Shown: piece after piece, positions 4,326-20,532 of the stretch
How the letters are laid out: every line of letters starts with the position of its first letter
How positions within the stretch are numbered: the stretch's first letter is position 1
Made by a program: the position numbers and the translations under genes
Source of the DNA: a virus
Reading direction: 5' to 3' (one strand)
Length of the DNA stretch: 21,464 nt
Virus record (IMG/VR): IMGVR_UViG_3300038825_000279
Span: 1-21,464 of that record
The notes under the pieces: generated by a model
The model's input: only the letters and a program-made list of their open reading frames with translations
Told to the model about the DNA's origin: nothing
Database searches by the model: none

Positions 4326-4678
4326 CGGTTATCTCCTGATCCCTTAATCACACCACGCTTGGCACGATCATTCAACTTATCCATGTTAGTCTCCATTACC
4401 TCTGGCAGGTTACTGTAGAAGTAATTAGCCAAGGCTGTCGTGTAAAACAGAACGTCACCTAGCTCTTTGACGATCTCTTTCTGGTTAACCTTAGTATCGT
4501 CACGGAGGTACTTCTTTACCTTCTCGGCTACCTCCCCTGCTTCCCCTACGAGACCCAAAGCATTTTCCACTAGGCGGGTCTCACCTTTTGTCGTGATCTT
4601 ACCTTCAACCCAATAGGAATACTCCATCGGTGTAACATTAACAATGCTGAAAGCATCAATGTCTTCTTGCGTAATCAT
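4322..4678 (-). CDS. mazG: MazG-like nucleotide pyrophosphohydrolase
   Basis: 118 residues. The metal-binding pattern of the MazG/all-alpha NTP pyrophosphatase family is present: GEAGEVAEKVKK (about 45-56) and then KEIVKELGDVLFY (about 67-79), i.e. E-x2-E followed by E-x2-D. It would cleave NTPs or dNTPs to monophosphates plus pyrophosphate; in marine phages it is often carried with RNR and ThyX. In some phages it has been proposed to act on ppGpp, but nothing here tells which substrate is used. It overlaps the methyltransferase gene before it and the DUF1127 gene after it by four bases each. Confidence 0.88.
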   Translation of the reverse strand: MITQEDIDAFSIVNVTPMEYSYWVEGKITTKGETRLVENALGLVGEAGEVAEKVKKYLRDDTKVNQKEIVKELGDVLFYTTALANYFYSNLPEVMETNMDKLNDRAKRGVIKGSGDNR

Positions 4679-7960: not shown

Positions 7961-7998
7961 TATAGTATAATAGGGGCCCTAACTTAAAAAAGTTTCCT
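7961..7998 (-). promoter_or_regulatory. phage promoter-like element, copy C (upstream of SSB gene)
   Basis: On the minus strand: AGGAAAC, exactly 15 bases, CCCC, then TATTATACTATA. It shares the long block AGGAAACTTTTTT with the copy before the terminase genes and the same spacing with the copy before the primase gene. It lies in the 68-base gap after the DNA polymerase gene and about 25 bases before the SSB start. The AT-rich end looks like a -10 region, but no normally spaced sigma-70 -35 box is present (a TTGACT lies too far upstream). Confidence 0.7.
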
Positions 7999-8022: not shown

Positions 8023-9873
8023 CTAGTGAATTTCAGCGTAAGTGTTGCCGAACTGCACATCTGTGCCTAACGGTACATTTAACTGAAGGTTTTTGTTTAA
8101 TATTTCCATGGCGCCCTTCATTGTAGCTTCTGCATATTTTTCCTCCCCTTCCTTAACCAAGGCTATAATCTCATCGTGAAACTGTCCGATAACCTTTACG
8201 CCGTTCTTCCTACAGTCAGCCACCCAAGTATCAAAACAGAATACTCCAGTACCCTGATTTAAGGTGGAGAACCTATCTTTCTCGTTACGAAGAGCGTACC
8301 AGAACCTAGACACAGGGTTCCACAACCATAAGCTGTCTATACACTCTTGAGTTTTAGTTTCCTCGGCAACCTGTGTGACAGCCTTGTTGCGTTCCCAGAA
8401 GGCATCTAGCAGAGCCTTAGCCTCTTTCAAGGTCATCCCTGTCTCACGAGCCAGCTTAGAGGCTCCGATGCCGTAGGTAGCACTATAATTAACCACCTTG
8501 TAATTCTTACGCAGGGCCTTCAAGCTACGCACCCCAGAGTTGTGCAAGTCTATGTCCTCCTGTGTTATTACCCCAGCAAACTTTGCTAAGTCTAAGTGTG
8601 GATCAAAGCCTTCACGGCTCATCTCCTCAACATACTCTGGATCATGCGGTTGCATGTAGTGTCGTTTAGTAGTGTCCTCAAGGGATGTCATATCTGCACC
8701 ACACAAAGTATAACCCTCTGGTGAGGTAAGACACCCTCGAATATCAGCACCGTATGGCTTCTCCACACCGGGAAGATTAACCAAGGGTTTAGCGTGACGA
8801 AAACGCAAGGTGTTGGTAAAACCTGCGATACTAGCTTGCACATAGCCCCCCTGCTCTGCGTTCAGCATACCCTTAATAATACCCAATCGGTGAGAGAGTA
8901 CAGCTAGACCGTCTAAGATAGCTACAGCAGGGTCTTTATCCACTAACTTTAATACAGACGGACAAAGTTCTCCGTTGACGGTAACTTGCTCAACATTACG
9001 ATCTTCGCTGTCACCCTTACCCTTGACGAACTTGTAACTCTGTGGCTCCCACCCAAGGCTAGTTAGCCAAGCCTTTACCTGTGGTGAGGAGTTAGGGTTG
9101 GCCTTTTCTGTCTTGTGTACAACACGCAAACTGACAGTGGTAGATGGTACTTTATACTCCTCGCAAAGGTTGTACCATGTTTCACCAGCGACAGATATTT
9201 CCCCGTTCTTCTTTTCCATTCGGTCTGGGCTGGGTTTAACCACATCCTTATACTTAACTACCATTGGCATGGCGTCTGCAAGCTGCTTAATCTTATCCTC
9301 TTTTAAGGCCTCCCACTCCGCTAAGTGTGCCTTTGCTTTTGGTACATCTAATTTCCACTGTAGCCCCTCTTGCTCTGCCGCGCAGTCCAACTTGAAGGTG
9401 AGGTAGTCTAATAACCGTTCCTTATCCTCTGGTTGATCTTTGTACAGCTTGTTGAGTTTACGACTGAGGTCTTTCCACAACTTAGAGTTGATCTTAACAT
9501 CTTCTTGACAGCGGTGCTTATAGTCCTCGACAGACAGGTTTTCCCAATCGGTAATCTTTGGCTTGGGTACACCATACTCTTCGCCATAGAGGTCTAGGTT
9601 GTGACGTGTACGGTGGTGGTCGATATACCAAGCAACAGCAAGGGTGTCTATCAGTCGGGCTTTAACCTTGATACCCAATACGCTTTCTACTGCGGGTACA
9701 TCGAACCTTACAATGTTGTGTCCAATAAGGGTGTCGTCACCCATAAAGAACCTACGCATTTCATCATAGTCATGCGTAGAGTTGACCGTCTCACCTAAGT
9801 CATCAGACCAAGATAAGACGTGTATTTTTGTACTGTTTAGTCCATCCGTTTCAATATCAAATATTCTGTTCAC
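8023..9873 (-). CDS. family A DNA polymerase (T7-like) with 3'-5' exonuclease domain
   Basis: 616 residues. The proofreading domain has FDIETD (D6, E8), LIGHNIVRFD (about 49-58) and RCQEDVKIN (D125). The polymerase domain has motif A GADMTSLED (D394), motif B RKNYKVVNYSATYG (R455, K459, Y463, Y467) and motif C GQFHDEII (H566, D567, E568). Tyr at the position equal to E. coli Pol I residue 762 is the T7-like state. It is shorter than T7 polymerase (704). The start is GTG 9873, overlapping the primase-helicase stop in a GTGA junction, so the two replisome proteins are coupled. Confidence 0.96.
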   Translation of the reverse strand: MNRIFDIETDGLNSTKIHVLSWSDDLGETVNSTHDYDEMRRFFMGDDTLIGHNIVRFDVPAVESVLGIKVKARLIDTLAVAWYIDHHRTRHNLDLYGEEYGVPKPKITDWENLSVEDYKHRCQEDVKINSKLWKDLSRKLNKLYKDQPEDKERLLDYLTFKLDCAAEQEGLQWKLDVPKAKAHLAEWEALKEDKIKQLADAMPMVVKYKDVVKPSPDRMEKKNGEISVAGETWYNLCEEYKVPSTTVSLRVVHKTEKANPNSSPQVKAWLTSLGWEPQSYKFVKGKGDSEDRNVEQVTVNGELCPSVLKLVDKDPAVAILDGLAVLSHRLGIIKGMLNAEQGGYVQASIAGFTNTLRFRHAKPLVNLPGVEKPYGADIRGCLTSPEGYTLCGADMTSLEDTTKRHYMQPHDPEYVEEMSREGFDPHLDLAKFAGVITQEDIDLHNSGVRSLKALRKNYKVVNYSATYGIGASKLARETGMTLKEAKALLDAFWERNKAVTQVAEETKTQECIDSLWLWNPVSRFWYALRNEKDRFSTLNQGTGVFCFDTWVADCRKNGVKVIGQFHDEIIALVKEGEEKYAEATMKGAMEILNKNLQLNVPLGTDVQFGNTYAEIH

Positions 9874-11489
9874 TCATTTACCTCTCTAAGTTTAAACGTA
9901 TCCGTGCTAAATCGTAGCTTTCCAGCTAAACCTTCGACTGACGCTGGTCGGTTCTTTTGCACTACAATAGAAGTAGTGTTTCTGTCGATTAATGTATCAG
10001 CCTCTTTGTCACGGGATAGGTCAATAAGAACGCTGGCCCGTTGTGCAATCATTCTGCAATATTTGGGGTCTCCCTCTTCGTTAGTGTGTGCGATTGTAAC
10101 AATACCTACATCAAGTTCGGCAGCTAGTTTTGATAGTCGAATTGAAAGGTCAGCCAGCATACTCTCCTTACTGTCGTCGGAACTACCTACAACTACATCT
10201 TGAATAGGTTCAAAGAAGATATACTTACACTCACAAGCCTGACTGAAGTAACGTATTTGCTCACACAACTCGTTGACACCCTGTCCATCTTGTAGAAAAA
10301 ACTGATACAGCAACCCATCTTTAGTAAGATTAGTGATAGTCTCCTTAACAAGCCCTTCTGCACCCTCCTCATCAATAAGATCACGGCGTGTAAGGTTTAG
10401 GTCAGCTTCATACGAGACTAAACCCAAAAGGCTGCGTAGCTTAGTTTCCTCCAAATGCCAAGTGGCAATGGGGATACCCTGCTTTAGCATGCTGTACTCT
10501 AGTAATCGCATAACCTCAGTCTTACCAATTCCTGTGGGGGCCTTGATAACCGTGAAGTGCCCTTGCATCAAACCTAAAATCTTATCATCCAAAGCCTTTA
10601 TGCCTGTGGGGACATAGTTGTGTGTAGGAGAGTTCTCAAACAAGTCAAGGAACTGCTCAGTAGTGTTTAGGACGTTATCTGGCACATATTTAGAAGCATT
10701 GAACCAAGCACTGACAAACTCTTTAGATGCACCACCAACTAGGAAATCATTAGCATCCTTAAACTTGTTGTGAGATACCCGAAAGACCTTAGATGGAAAC
10801 ATCTTACAAATCTTATCCGCAATCTCATTGCCAGCCTTATCATTATCAACAGATAGAACCAAGCGGTCGAAGGAGTCCAAGTAGGGCTTGCAGACCTCCC
10901 ACAAGGACTTACTCGGGGTTGCTGAGGGTAATGATACAACAGGGGATAGATAACCATCCCGATTGTTTAACATCTGATAAGCTGACAGAGCATCAATCTC
11001 ACCTTCTGTAATGGTTAGGGTCTTTGAACAACCAGCGGTAAAGAAGTTCATACCGAACAGCTCTTCAGTCTTAAAGCCCTTTGACACATAGAAGTCCTTT
11101 TCCTTTAGGTCACGGGTTTTAATTCCACCGGAGGGGTACACATACTCCTGACTAGCCCCCTTCTTATAAGTCCTCACGTTATAGGTTTCCATTGTGCGCT
11201 CGGATATGCCACGCATTGAAGCATATTCCCACGCACCCCTGTCCTTAGCCGCCTCCTTTACGGGGGCTTTCTCTACTACAAAGATGTCTTCGTCCTTGGT
11301 TTTAACTGCTCCCAATGGCGGGTACTCCTTCTCTGCCCAATCAAACTTAGGTTTACTTGACGGGTAATTGGTCCTGCAAGAAAAGCAAAGACCAAAACCT
11401 TTTGTGTTATATGAGAACGCGTCGCTACTGCCACAATCAACATAAGGGCATGGTAGACTTTTAATGTTCTCGTACTCTTCTTTAGACAT
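9870..11489 (-). CDS. bifunctional DNA primase-helicase (T7 gp4-like)
   Basis: 539 residues. A zinc-binding domain (C14, C19, C35, C38) is followed by a Toprim primase core with TEGEID (161-166) and DNDKAG (215-220), then a DnaB-type helicase with Walker A APTGIGKT (317-324), a Walker B region KYIFFEP and the helicase H-motif block GIVTIAHTNEEGD. It unwinds the fork and lays down primers for the polymerase encoded next. Translation starts at ATG 11489 behind AGAGAGG. A promoter-like element and a conserved leader lie just upstream, making this the head of the replication transcript. Confidence 0.96.
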   Translation of the reverse strand: MSKEEYENIKSLPCPYVDCGSSDAFSYNTKGFGLCFSCRTNYPSSKPKFDWAEKEYPPLGAVKTKDEDIFVVEKAPVKEAAKDRGAWEYASMRGISERTMETYNVRTYKKGASQEYVYPSGGIKTRDLKEKDFYVSKGFKTEELFGMNFFTAGCSKTLTITEGEIDALSAYQMLNNRDGYLSPVVSLPSATPSKSLWEVCKPYLDSFDRLVLSVDNDKAGNEIADKICKMFPSKVFRVSHNKFKDANDFLVGGASKEFVSAWFNASKYVPDNVLNTTEQFLDLFENSPTHNYVPTGIKALDDKILGLMQGHFTVIKAPTGIGKTEVMRLLEYSMLKQGIPIATWHLEETKLRSLLGLVSYEADLNLTRRDLIDEEGAEGLVKETITNLTKDGLLYQFFLQDGQGVNELCEQIRYFSQACECKYIFFEPIQDVVVGSSDDSKESMLADLSIRLSKLAAELDVGIVTIAHTNEEGDPKYCRMIAQRASVLIDLSRDKEADTLIDRNTTSIVVQKNRPASVEGLAGKLRFSTDTFKLREVNE

Positions 11490-11504: not shown

Positions 11505-11523
11505 TCTACTGGTTGACCTTAAC
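11505..11523 (-). promoter_or_regulatory. conserved 19-base leader element before primase-helicase
   Basis: Reads GTTAAGGTCAACCAGTAGA on the minus strand, then a purine-rich Shine-Dalgarno and TATAG directly before the ATG. The identical 19 bases, the same Shine-Dalgarno-like run and TATAG recur on the + strand at 18570-18588, at the same 23-base distance from the TATATATATG block. It would lie in the 5' untranslated RNA if transcription starts at the AT block, so it may act as a DNA operator or as an RNA element. Confidence 0.65.
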
Positions 11524-11546: not shown

Positions 11547-11584
11547 CATATATATATAGGGGCCTTAAACCCAGTTTGTTTCCT
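11547..11584 (-). promoter_or_regulatory. phage promoter-like element, copy B (upstream of primase-helicase)
   Basis: On the minus strand: AGGAAAC (11584-11578), 15 bases, then CCCCTATATATATATG (11562-11547). The 16-base AT block is identical to that of the copy before the terminase genes, and the internal spacing is the same in all three copies. A TTGACA overlaps the upstream edge but is 25 bases from the TATATA, too far for a standard sigma-70 promoter. It lies in the 123-base gap between the sigma-like gene and the primase gene. Confidence 0.72.
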
Positions 11585-11612: not shown

Positions 11613-12248
11613 CTATAATGGAACTATGTCCCTCAGCTTTTCCATTAGTTGTTTCTCCCTTTTAGATATGGCGGGTTTCTGCACTTGCATGAATTCTGCT
11701 ATCTCTCCCTGAGTCATGTCCTCTACAAACCTCATGTGTAGGTATAGGTTTTCAGTGTCATTTAGGTTCTCTTCAAGGGCCTTCTTAAACTTCTCATTGA
11801 AGTCCTTTTCCTCGTAATCCGCCTCGTAGGAATTACCAACCATGTGACCTGCCTCAATGGTAACTACCTGAGCTTTTAGGGTGTTCCTAAGATGCTCCAC
11901 CCCTTGTTCGCTCCAGTTGTGATTATCACCAATGTCCTCCACGTTTAAGTTTCTAGCTAACTTTCGTGAAACCTTTGACGCAGGGATGTGTACTGGAAAT
12001 AGACCCAAGTTAAGGTAATCATGCATCCTTGTATTAGCGTTCCTGTACAGGTCGCCCCAGTGGTCGGAAGGTTGCTCTCCAAGCTCCTCTAGCTTTCTGA
12101 TTGTCTCTATAGACTCTAGCACCCCCTCACTTACCAAGTCTTCAAAATGCACATGGTTTACTTTGTACTTACGGGCGAGTCGCTGACACATCTTAACTAC
12201 TTCGCTCATGTTTATCTTACCAGAGGTTTGTGAATCTTCCTTATTCAT
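11613..12248 (-). CDS. sigma-70-family RNA polymerase sigma factor
   Basis: 211 residues. The N-terminal half resembles sigma region 2 (ARKYKVNHVHFEDLVSEGVL and a following helix with YRNANTRMHDYLNL); PVHIPASKVSRKLARNL (about 84-100) resembles the start of region 3; and the C-terminal half ends in a region 4-type helix-turn-helix (YLHMRFVEDMTQGEIAEFM then VQKPAISKREKQLMEKL). It would direct host RNA polymerase to phage promoters. The gene overlaps the DUF3310 gene by four bases and lies directly before promoter-like element B. Sequence divergence is high, so specificity cannot be read off. Confidence 0.8.
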   Translation of the reverse strand: MNKEDSQTSGKINMSEVVKMCQRLARKYKVNHVHFEDLVSEGVLESIETIRKLEELGEQPSDHWGDLYRNANTRMHDYLNLGLFPVHIPASKVSRKLARNLNVEDIGDNHNWSEQGVEHLRNTLKAQVVTIEAGHMVGNSYEADYEEKDFNEKFKKALEENLNDTENLYLHMRFVEDMTQGEIAEFMQVQKPAISKREKQLMEKLRDIVPL

Positions 12249-13484: not shown

Positions 13485-13648
13485 TAGAACGGCACCTCAC
13501 CTTTTCCATTGCGGGGGTCATTGAAGTAACCCTTCGCTAAATACTCCAGCCGTGGATCAAGTAGTTCCTCTAGCTCACGGATGATTGACTTGGGACGGAT
13601 ACCCATCTCTTCCAAGTGTTGCTCAAGTGTCATGTTAAACATTCTCAT
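13484..13648 (-). CDS. 54-residue hypothetical protein
   Basis: ATG 13648 overlaps the hydrolase stop (ATGA) and follows GAAGGG; a longer upstream reading of the frame lacks a ribosome binding site and would lie inside the hydrolase gene. The product is a charged helical protein (LEQHLEEMGIRPKSIIREL, then LLDPRLEYLAKGYF) ending in DPRNGKGEVPF. The stop overlaps the thyX start (TAATG). No family is recognised. Its last codons contain one copy-like match of the dispersed TTTCCA-GGGGGTC motif. Confidence 0.6.
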   Translation of the reverse strand: MRMFNMTLEQHLEEMGIRPKSIIRELEELLDPRLEYLAKGYFNDPRNGKGEVPF

Positions 13649-14484: not shown

Positions 14485-14502
14485 ATTTCCACTGAGGGGG
14501 TC
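14485..14502 (-). repeat. single copy of the 18-base motif at a gene junction
   Basis: Plus strand ATTTCCACTGAGGGGGTC, differing by two bases from copies 2 and 4 of the cluster at 15819-15953. It fills exactly the space between the stop codon of the 55-residue HTH gene (14503-14505) and the AAGGAG of the next gene. Confidence 0.75.
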
Positions 14503-15837: not shown

Positions 15838-15953
15838 GGTTTATTTCCACTGTAGGGGGGTCATACATAATTCCCTCGGTGGGGTCTTAATTTCCACTGT
15901 AGGGGGTCGCGGTCATTTTCCACTGGTGGGGTCATTTTCCATCGGTGGGGGGT
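15819..15953. repeat. cluster of six imperfect 17-20-base repeats
   Basis: Plus-strand copies start at 15819, 15843, 15870, 15890, 15915 and 15934, with 19-27 bases from start to start. Consensus on the + strand is about WTTYCCACTGTAGGGGGTC; copies 2 and 4 are nearly identical, and copies 3, 5 and 6 have CGGTGGGG or TGGTGGGG in the second half. All six have the same orientation. The irregular spacing and short unit argue against CRISPR and for a protein-binding array. Confidence 0.88.
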
Positions 15954-15967
15954 ACATGAGCATATTC

Positions 15968-16053
15968 TTATATTCGAATATTTATATATGTTTATATTCT
16001 TATATGTAAATATGTTTATATTCGAATATTTATATATGTTTATATTCTTATAT
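15968..16053. repeat. two perfect 38-base AT-rich direct repeats
   Basis: Bases 15968-16005 and 16016-16053 are identical and lie 48 bases apart start to start. Each contains the perfect 12-base palindrome ATATTCGAATAT (15970-15981 and 16018-16029). The whole 15961-16075 stretch is almost pure A and T and would melt easily. Confidence 0.92.
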
Positions 16054-16092
16054 AAGCGTTCGTTTATATTTTGGGCTGGTGAAACCGGATTC

Positions 16093-16143
16093 GCCACGCC
16101 TGAGCCATTGCCACGCATGAGACATTGCCACGCCTGAGCCTGA
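16093..16143. repeat. three tandem 17-base iterons
   Basis: Units at 16093-16109, 16110-16126 and 16127-16143, each beginning GCCACGC(C/A)TGAG, with exact 17-base period and few differences. They lie 40 bases from the AT-rich repeats. Tandem iterons of this size are typical binding sites of replication initiators or partition proteins. Confidence 0.85.
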
Positions 16144-18384: not shown

Positions 18385-18404
18385 GTGTGACATAAATAAC
18401 ACAC
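18385..18404. promoter_or_regulatory. candidate operator, copy 1
   Basis: GTGTGACATAAATAACACAC, with five-base inverted arms (GTGTG/CACAC). A second copy with one change lies 70 bases downstream. Their position between the sigma-70-like promoter and promoter-like element A suggests binding by a regulator of late transcription. Confidence 0.5.
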
Positions 18405-18454
18405 ATGGGCTCAAACCCAACCCCACATAGCTCAAACACCCGTCATACACCAAT

Positions 18455-18474
18455 GTGTAACATAAATAACACAC
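18455..18474. promoter_or_regulatory. candidate operator, copy 2
   Basis: GTGTAACATAAATAACACAC, one base different from the copy at 18385-18404; the flanking T at 18454 and A at 18475 give TGTGT/ACACA arms. It ends 34 bases before the AGGAAAC of promoter-like element A. Confidence 0.5.
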
Positions 18475-18508
18475 AGGTTAACAAAGTGCAAAAATAAATA
18501 AAATTCTT

Positions 18509-18546
18509 AGGAAACTTTTTTGAGCTTGGGCCCCTATATATATATG
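18509..18546 (+). promoter_or_regulatory. phage promoter-like element, copy A (upstream of terminase genes)
   Basis: AGGAAAC (18509-18515), 15 bases, then CCCCTATATATATATG (18531-18546). It shares AGGAAACTTTTTT and GGGCCCCTAT with copy C and the full AT block with copy B. It is about 200 bases before terS and is the only copy on the + strand, so it is the best candidate for the main late promoter. Confidence 0.72.
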
Positions 18547-18569
18547 AAGGGGTATTCGCCCGGTCCTTA

Positions 18570-18588
18570 GTTAAGGTCAACCAGTAGA
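18570..18588 (+). promoter_or_regulatory. conserved 19-base leader element without a gene
   Basis: GTTAAGGTCAACCAGTAGA, identical to 11505-11523 (minus strand) and followed by a similar AGAAGAGG and TATAG. At the primase gene an ATG follows one base after TATAG; here GTAC takes its place and no start codon with a usable frame follows. Confidence 0.65.
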
Positions 18589-18746
18589 GAAGAGGTATAG
18601 GTACACTGTAGGTGTAGTCTATAGTCTTTACGGTGATACCCTCCACAGTCTCCTCCCCCCAACCAACCATAGTGAACCTAGTCAAACTGTAGCTCAGACG
18701 TGACTATGCCGATAGTGGGGGAAGGGCTTTATTTTGGTAGTACGAA

Positions 18747-19184
18747 ATGGCTTCTAATAAAAAACTTCCATACAGTAATGTTATCGCCAAAGTTGTTAAA
18801 CTTGGTGTCAGTCAAGGTGTGGCTGTAGCTGACATCTTGGCTGGTATCCAGAAATACCAAGATGCACCCTCCAGTCTAACTACCTTCTATAAGTTGTATG
18901 GTGGCGATATAGCAGAGGTCAAGCTCAACACTATCGGAGAAGTAGGTCAGGTAGTAGTCCAAAAGGCACTTGATGGAGACCTTAAGGCTGCTGAACTGTT
19001 TCTTCGTAGTAAAGGTGGTTGGTCTCCTACGCACACGGTAAACGAAGTTGAACGTGAGATTGACCCCGACCTAGACGAAAGTGCAGCCTCTACACTTATG
19101 TCGCTACTAGGATATAACAACGATGCCCCCGAAGAAGAAACAACCTGTACCTGTGGCGAGGAAGATAACTGCCGATGCTCTTAG
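18747..19184 (+). CDS. terS: terminase small subunit
   Basis: 145 residues. The N-terminal half looks like a DNA-binding HTH domain (SNVIAKVVKLGVSQGVAVAD, then PSSLTTFYKLYGGDIAEVK); the helical middle (GQVVVQKALDGDLKAAELFL, then RSKGGWSPT) is the usual oligomerisation part of TerS. It would recognise the packaging site and load the large subunit. The last 13 residues have four cysteines (CTCGEEDNCRC), an unusual tail that could bind zinc. No strong Shine-Dalgarno precedes ATG 18747. Its last 62 bases overlap the start of terL. First gene of the rightward late transcript. Confidence 0.82.
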   Translation: MASNKKLPYSNVIAKVVKLGVSQGVAVADILAGIQKYQDAPSSLTTFYKLYGGDIAEVKLNTIGEVGQVVVQKALDGDLKAAELFLRSKGGWSPTHTVNEVEREIDPDLDESAASTLMSLLGYNNDAPEEETTCTCGEEDNCRCS

Positions 19185-20532
19185 AGGATTACCTCAGAGT
19201 AAAGTTAAGGACATCTTCGATCAGCTAGGGCCACTCAAGACTGAGGAACTTAAGCATGACTGGATGTTTTGGGCGAGGGATAACCAACTTGAGCCTAATG
19301 ATACCGATTGGAATGTTTGGTTTATTAACGCAGGTCGTGGATTTGGTAAAACTCGTTCTGGTGTAGAGTGGGTACGAGAGAATGTTAAACGTGGTGTTAA
19401 ACGTATAGCTGCTGTAGCTTCTACCAACTCAGATATTGAACGAGTTATGGTCAAAGGTGAATCTGGTTTCCTATCGGTATGCTGGAAGGGTGACAAGACC
19501 CACAAAGGTAAGAAGATGGGGTTCCCTGAGTGGTCTCCAACTAAGCGTACACTTACATGGGAGAATGGAGCGCAAGTACAGTTCTTCTCCGCAGAGGAAC
19601 CTGAGCGTCTCCGTGGCCCACAGTTTGAGTTAGCTTGGTGTGATGAGACTGCTGCTTGGAACAAGGACATGGACACTTGGCAGATGCTACAGTTTTGTAT
19701 GCGTCTGGGTAAACACCCAAGGATCATGGTTACGACCACTCCTAAGCCAACTAAACTTATTCGTCAGATACTCAAAGACCCTAAGACTGTAGTTACCTCT
19801 GGTAGTACCTTTGATAACTCAGCCAACCTAGCTACAACATACCTCACTGCTGTTAAAGAGCAGTACGAAGGAACTAGACTAGGTAGACAAGAGCTTTATG
19901 CTGAAGTCCTAGAAGAAGCTCAAGGAGCCTTGTGGACTACAGCTATGCTAGATGACTGTTCAGTTAAACATGAGGCAGTCCCAGACCTTTCCCGTATTGT
20001 CGTTGCACTTGATCCCGCTGTTACCTCTAATGCTGAGAGTGACATGACGGGTATTATTGTCGCAGGTATTGACATTAACGGTATTGCTTATGTCCTTGGA
20101 GATTATACCGATAGGTTATCACCACAGGGTTGGGCATCTAAAGCCATCCAATTGTATCACCAGTACCAAGCTGACCGTATTGTAGCGGAAGTTAACCAAG
20201 GTGGTGATATGGTCAAACAAACGATCCACGGAGAAGACCCTACAGTACCGTATAAGGCTGTTAGAGCATCCCGTGGTAAGTTCGCTAGGGCTGAACCTGT
20301 GTCAGCACTTTATGAACGTGGTTTGGTAAAGCATGTGGCTAATCCCCCTGATGGGGCTTCGTTGAACGAATTAGAAACACAAATGAGAACATGGGAACCA
20401 CTAGGGTCGATTGGCTCCCCAGATAGACTTGATGCCTGTGTATGGGCAATTACAGACCTCTCACTTAACGGATATGCGAAACCCAAACTGACCCTCGCTT
20501 ACTCAAGTGCTAAGGGACTTTCACAGAAATAA
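19123..20532 (+). CDS. terL: terminase large subunit
   Basis: 469 residues. ATPase: Walker A GRGFGKTR (71-78), Walker B LAWCDE (170-175), motif III TTTPKP (204-209). Nuclease of RNase H type: VVALDPAV (D297), RIVAEVNQGGDMV (E356) and GSPDRLDA (D437). The segment DWMFWARDNQL (46-56) before Walker A and the nuclease pattern match the terminase group common in alphaproteobacterial phages and gene-transfer agents. It cuts and pumps DNA into the prohead. ATG 19123 gives a 62-base overlap with terS; residues 20-50 look like the family's usual N-terminus, supporting this start. Confidence 0.95.
   Translation: MPPKKKQPVPVARKITADALRGLPQSKVKDIFDQLGPLKTEELKHDWMFWARDNQLEPNDTDWNVWFINAGRGFGKTRSGVEWVRENVKRGVKRIAAVASTNSDIERVMVKGESGFLSVCWKGDKTHKGKKMGFPEWSPTKRTLTWENGAQVQFFSAEEPERLRGPQFELAWCDETAAWNKDMDTWQMLQFCMRLGKHPRIMVTTTPKPTKLIRQILKDPKTVVTSGSTFDNSANLATTYLTAVKEQYEGTRLGRQELYAEVLEEAQGALWTTAMLDDCSVKHEAVPDLSRIVVALDPAVTSNAESDMTGIIVAGIDINGIAYVLGDYTDRLSPQGWASKAIQLYHQYQADRIVAEVNQGGDMVKQTIHGEDPTVPYKAVRASRGKFARAEPVSALYERGLVKHVANPPDGASLNELETQMRTWEPLGSIGSPDRLDACVWAITDLSLNGYAKPKLTLAYSSAKGLSQK

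Follow-up and report, generated by a model that had tools for sequence, protein, structure and literature searches.

Phage sigma factors with late promoters of their own are known, and in lambda-like phages the cos/cosB region adjoins terS, the gene for the small terminase subunit. The phi29 phages use a different packaging set-up, and Rfam holds a family for the phi29 pRNA. The HK022 antiterminator RNAs putL and putR are phage RNAs of about 70 nt that act in cis just past their promoters, and they occur as two related copies in the leaders of two transcripts, each copy being the whole RNA with two stem-loops (PMC9378689). Autogenous mRNA operators include ribosomal protein leaders (PMC4538822).

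We analysed a window of 21,464 nucleotides from a marine virus, comprising positions 1 to 21,464 of the IMG/VR virus record IMGVR_UViG_3300038825_000279, with a focus on the untranslated stretch in front of terS. As with HK022 put, a 20-nt element here has related copies in two predicted transcript leaders, shortly past their promoter-like blocks, and a predicted folded core that may act in cis is similar in size to put (about 70 nt). Unlike put, only the 20-nt element is duplicated; the core was found only before terS, once per genome, in the late operon, and it is predicted to form a single stem with two internal loops instead of two stem-loops. The leader also resembles autogenous mRNA operators in that a structured leader precedes the gene for a putative nucleic-acid-binding protein; the difference is that it heads a whole late operon.

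The element GTTAAGGTCAACCAGTAGA has two exact copies in the window, at 18570-18588 on the plus strand and in the primase leader at 11505-11523 on the minus strand. At up to three mismatches there were still two matches, compared with 0.02 expected from shuffles. Each copy lies 23 nt past a TATATATATATG block (18546 to 18570 and 11547 to 11523) and is followed on its 3' side by a GAGG-like run and then TATAG. On the primase side, TATAGT runs into the ATG (11489) of a primase-helicase gene (9870-11489, minus strand; PHROG 239, E = 6.4e-96), whereas on the terS side GTAC comes after TATAG, with about 148 nt left before the terS ATG at 18747. The initial annotation had reported this shared series of 19-mer, GAGG-like run and TATAG at the same distance from the block in both leaders, as well as the ATG at the primase gene against GTAC and some 150 untranslated bases before terS, and both descriptions were borne out.

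The promoter-like block has the form GGAAAC-N13-GGCCCCTATA and occurs three times in the window, against 0.31 expected. The copy that heads the late (terminase) operon, GGAAAC-N13-GGCCCCTATATATATATG, spans 18510-18546 (plus strand) and covaries with the primase promoter across genomes. A matching block precedes the primase operon (11547-11583, minus strand), and a weaker third one, without a 19-mer, lies at 7969-7997 (minus strand). The minus strand carries the genes for primase-helicase, DNA polymerase, ribonucleotide reductase, thymidylate synthase and a sigma-like protein, and the plus strand carries the terminase genes; the two 19-mer copies therefore head divergent replication and late operons.

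Several other repeats were seen in the window. A TTTCCACTGNGGGGGT-like repeat has eight copies at up to three mismatches (0.46 expected), all on the plus strand, at 2002-2017, 4564-4579, 11122-11137, 13503-13518, 14486-14501, 15844-15859, 15891-15906 and 15917-15932. Upstream of the late promoter, a near-identical pair of palindromic 21-mers (GTGTGACATAAATAACACACA; 18385-18405 and 18455-18475) is kept in close relatives, and these are candidates for an operator or an origin. An AT-rich array with 8-nt periodicity and internal palindromes occupies 15953-16056, and a 17-nt unit, GCCACGCCTGAGCCATT, stands in three tandem copies at 16093-16143. Outside the window, in L005, L067 and their kin, CTACCCACTTAAGT and TTGTCGTTAA motifs recur ahead of terS and primase together with TTAAGTT palindromes, some of these being common to the same two leaders.

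To compare these features across genomes, relatives were gathered by terL and primase queries, with 80 contigs for each. Among them the exact 19-mer was found in only two further contigs, once at each site. Counterparts in other genomes sit at a similar distance from the promoter block and are alike within a genome but unlike between genomes; a record of 43,176 bases, for instance, holds exactly two copies of its own counterpart, on opposite strands. Identity of the element was 0.87 between the two operons of one genome versus 0.68 between genomes. The spacer between block and element (18547-18569, plus strand, in the late operon) behaved in the opposite way, with an identity of 0.44 between the operons of one genome, close to the 0.46 of unrelated pairs, versus a mean of 0.67, taken over both operons, between genomes at the same operon. 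The length from block to element is nevertheless kept at 21-24 nt. Since the spacers of the two operons are so unlike, there has been no recent copying of the whole block.

In a set of five genomes, pairing each primase element with the terS element of its own genome ranked first among all 120 permutations by total alignment score, although in one genome, L132, the primase element scored better against the terS leaders of two other genomes than against its own. The promoter blocks follow the same pattern. Both sites were within reach in 21 contigs, and the blocks could be set in register in 15; in 13 of these 15, both promoters have the same 7 nt ahead of TATA, a result matched by none of 20,000 permutations. 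With one genome per promoter type, 2 of 362,880 permutations were as good. In more distant clades, other shared leader features stand in place of the element. Neither loss of the element at one site nor random drift, the two outcomes that would have counted against a role for it, was found in contigs that share the window's promoter type and extend over both sites. Compared in this way, promoter block and element form a module at the head of two divergent operons, which changes in concert in each genome around an operon-specific spacer. The initial annotation's proposal that the 19-base element is itself the functional part is supported by its presence at both sites in relatives and by this concerted change, which points to recognition of the site by a rapidly evolving phage factor.

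Concerted change within genomes could also arise by gene conversion, with recombination between the two operon heads keeping the elements alike and the element having no function of its own. We consider this unlikely. In both copies the block and the element are conserved islands with a diverged spacer between them, and conversion would oddly have to work in tracts of some 20 nt and pass over the spacer; the constant distance from block to element also speaks against it.

A candidate for the factor that reads the promoter is encoded next to it. Adjoining the primase promoter, a gene at 11613-12248 (minus strand) encodes a protein of the sigma-70 family (PHROG 351, E = 8.4e-14; Pfam Sigma70_r4, E = 3.5e-9), which is what a sigma-dependent promoter would call for. 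Of 81 testable loci, 80 have a sigma homologue upstream of primase and on its strand, and this homologue is 69% identical where the primase is 90% identical. From its recurrence and position we infer that the block is a promoter, and its reader may be the sigma-like protein that the phage itself encodes, a possibility with which the block's concerted change agrees. Phage systems of sigma factor and late promoter likewise combine a sigma-like gene with a shared promoter block, here varying in concert, but in this phage the downstream 20-nt element varies in concert as well.

The untranslated bases before terS comprise a 5' hairpin followed by a conserved core. The hairpin domain is predicted at 18549-18642 (plus strand), where GGGGTATT in the spacer can pair with ATACCC near 18635-18642 to close the domain. 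In the window the predicted fold has no extra stability over shuffles (z = −0.14 for the whole leader and −1.13 for the 5' domain). Across 26 leaders, with promoter blocks picked by eye, the distance from block to core ranges from 91 to 186 nt and is usually foldable into a hairpin; z is below −2 in 14 of them, the window not being among these. At L051 (about 50-180), the 5' hairpin ahead of the core is made by an almost perfect inverted repeat, about 39 bp long as judged by eye. A search for tRNA and tmRNA found none. On the plus strand, no terminator-like site was found between the promoter and terS, so the core is expected to lie within the late transcript.

The core (18657-18721, plus strand) consists of three paired segments and two internal loops, in the order P1, AAC/CYGA loop, P2, GAAC/AYGUG (or GUAUG-type) loop and P3. 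The 5' strand of P1 (18657-18665) is followed by the invariant AACCA with the 5' strand of P2 (18665-18673, P2 itself at 18668-18673) and by the GAAC loop strand with the 5' strand of P3 (18674-18680). On the return side, 18695-18712 holds the 3' strand of P3, the AYGTG loop strand, the 3' strand of P2 (18703-18708) and the C-Y-G-A loop (18709-18712), and the 3' strand of P1 closes the core (18713-18721). The corresponding motif upstream of terS, AACCA-NNNN-GAAC ... AYGTG-NNNN-TGCYGA with complementary arms on both flanks, is retained in relatives down to 45-60% TerS identity.

In an alignment of 50 distinct cores (A1), 84.1% of cells were paired under the proposed structure, versus 66.1% when shuffled and 32-49% when the partners were slid, and 14 of the 17 pairs showed changes on both sides. 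P1 was never used for sequence selection, while P2 pairing (at least three of four) was a selection filter and its pairing rate in this alignment is inflated; without the filter, taking the best-pairing candidate per locus, all five P2 pairs formed in 45 of 56 protein-fetched loci. When a covariance model was made from the 50 cores, it gave exactly one match in each of 47 sources (507 kb, E up to 0.2), 23 of which lie outside the model, the divergent GTATG type among them. In the resulting alignment, which leans towards the proposed structure, 87.1% of cells were paired and 16 of 18 pairs had changed on both sides. The relative L038 has U-A in place of an otherwise invariant A-U pair. Core lengths in A1 differ by single bases (73 to 81 nt), against a reading frame, and we rejected a protein coded in the leader.

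The core is closely tied to its genomic position. Pattern scans of viral contigs gave 102 stretches of the GAAC type and 62 of the GTATG type. The core lies directly before terS on the same strand in 166 of the 171 distinct DNAs with a candidate, at a gap of 21-172 nt (median 79); the other five comprise four chance matches and one fetched piece that ends before the gene. The contigs are fragments, many from related populations, so these counts are of non-independent events. A search of twelve records was positive in eight, with one copy each; two of the four misses (the L035 and L006 records) do hold a core, so this search under-reports the GTATG type. The primase operon lacks the core, which leaves a general operon-head role for it unsupported. 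Comparison of these leaders thus shows a predicted structure that covaries strongly and directly adjoins terS.

Database searches returned no described counterpart. The exact GAAC-type pattern had no match in 84,980 bacterial and archaeal genomes, and the leader had none in plasmids. The Rfam 15 covariance models gave no matches in the window at the gathering cut-off, and nothing stronger than E = 0.23 came from permissive scans around the cores of the window, CRP-6, L012 and L067; a 5S rRNA-like motif was dropped as a candidate for lack of a supporting Rfam match. The cultured Roseobacter phage CRP-6 has the core, with no annotation under it, and among the best 20 of 31 matching records it was the only cultured phage to cover at least 80% of the CRP-6 core. 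Among the papers listed by literature searches, titles and the beginnings of abstracts describe no RNA element before terS in these phages. As read from sequence, the core is a previously unlisted, strongly conserved, folded RNA-like element that recurs ahead of terS in many related marine viruses, neither annotated in CRP-6 nor matched in Rfam.

The gene behind the core (18747-19184, plus strand) is tentatively taken as terS from its position and a faint fold likeness (best PDB match Sf6 TerS, E = 1.8; VIA Z 4.1), with a predicted helical, helix-turn-helix-like N-terminal domain; Pfam and PHROGs gave nothing convincing for the protein. Its tail (19139-19184) is cysteine-rich (CTC...NCRCS) in the window and some relatives, a possible metal site. 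The gene terL follows at 19123-20532 (plus strand; PHROG 979, E = 7.1e-46). Across the two genes (18747-20532) the histories differ, terL being up to 98% identical to that of phages whose TerS is about 59% identical. Over 123 loci, core type (GAAC or GTATG) changes twice on the terS tree versus ten times on the terL tree, and supported branches force at least five of the ten. The core and terS thus travel together while terL is exchanged, and linkage alone could make core type follow terS.

Of 61 distinct terS loci that were fetched by protein and have 300 nt or more of upstream sequence, 56 contain the core motif, and the five without it belong to one clade. Where TerS of this clade aligns over its whole length, it is 75-78% identical to that of CRP-6. 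These phages keep the promoter-like block and the 5' hairpin, after which the terS ATG follows directly or after a short unrelated stretch, and the covariance model found no core elsewhere in their records (the longest being 35,998 bases). The core is therefore not universally required, and as it can be missing while TerS stays, a regulatory role is likelier than an essential part in packaging.

Among the more specific readings of the core, one is that it blocks the ribosome-binding site of terS and acts on the translation of that gene alone. In the window, P1's 3' strand and the sequence following it (GGGGGAAGGG) are indeed purine-rich, but in CRP-6 the purine-rich run near the ATG is outside the core, and we rejected this improbable reading on the gap to the terS start, which varies from 21 to 172 nt.

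We think it still less probable that the core is a DNA packaging site (cos or pac) recognised by TerS, its pairing being incidental dyad symmetry. Like lambda-type cos/cosB, the core stands directly upstream of terS, as 166 of the 171 candidates do, and is inherited with it; 56 of 135 contig ends fall within 1 kb upstream, versus about 20 expected, and the stem mismatches have no strand bias. The ends, however, are spread over about 1 kb with no single point, and long hairpins could break assemblies. Unlike in cos/cosB, stem sequences change freely with compensation while complementarity stays, so that the loops and not the dyads are invariant, and a site needed wherever TerS is used would not be missing from 5 of 61 distinct protein-fetched loci whose TerS remains so close to that of CRP-6.

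A packaging RNA that works with the terminase like the phi29 pRNA seems highly improbable. Both would be small phage RNAs tied to packaging genes, here by place and ancestry, and the core has its own promoter-like block upstream and a compact fold. Unlike the pRNA, it has no Rfam family match and no separate terminator-like site after it on the plus strand, and its natural absence from a terS-bearing clade argues against a role required for packaging.

The least credible account, which the initial annotation had offered as its other option, is that recombination duplicated the promoter with its leader, whose gene was then lost, leaving decaying debris before terS; the 19-mer, GAGG run and TATAG are common to both leaders, but we rejected it since the spacers do not match (0.44 within genomes, no higher than the 0.46 of unrelated leaders), relatives keep the same arrangement with no gene there, and the rest of the leader is a conserved structure.

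In the explanation that we prefer and consider probable, a late-operon leader combines a concerted module of promoter and element with a conserved RNA-like core that regulates in cis. The stretch at 18570-18746 would be the 5' part of an untranslated, structured leader of about 200 nt with two layers. The first, promoter and 20-nt element, would be common to both operons and drift in concert; the phage's own sigma-like protein would read the promoter, and the 19-base element would be a site for a phage factor just past promoter escape in both operons. The second, hairpin and core, would belong to the late operon only, where the core may function at the RNA level, in cis within the late transcript, with a bound protein tuning late expression. 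The core most likely acts as single-stranded RNA, because its stems vary freely and its loops do not. Its stems hold 25 G-U and 22 A-C mismatches, and counts so nearly equal favour neither strand, whereas a purely RNA-level structure might show a bias. The most likely reading of these patterns is an RNA regulator that acts in cis where the late operon begins.

Two options lead for the role of the core, namely TerS or another phage protein binding the late mRNA, or a put-like effect on transcription. We would tentatively place first the binding of TerS or another phage protein to its own late mRNA, at somewhat short of an even chance. Antitermination or elongation control of the put type is possible at a lower level of confidence, and something else again is possible to about the same degree, if anything slightly more so. 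It is rather doubtful, but conceivable, that the core represents a phage RNA of a new class that acts together with the terminase. TerS or the motor would then read an RNA fold at the head of the late transcript, and the start of packaging or late expression would be coupled to an RNA that is specific to terS and passed on with it as a cassette, terL being exchanged.

The CRP-6-type marine phages are an abundant group (PMC6918029). Their late operon is headed by a strongly conserved, covarying leader element that comes with a natural control, a terS-bearing clade without the core. Conservation of the spacer by operon and of the element by genome points clearly to a phage factor that acts in trans with drifting specificity, and which protein reads these leaders is a directly testable question in a cultured phage.
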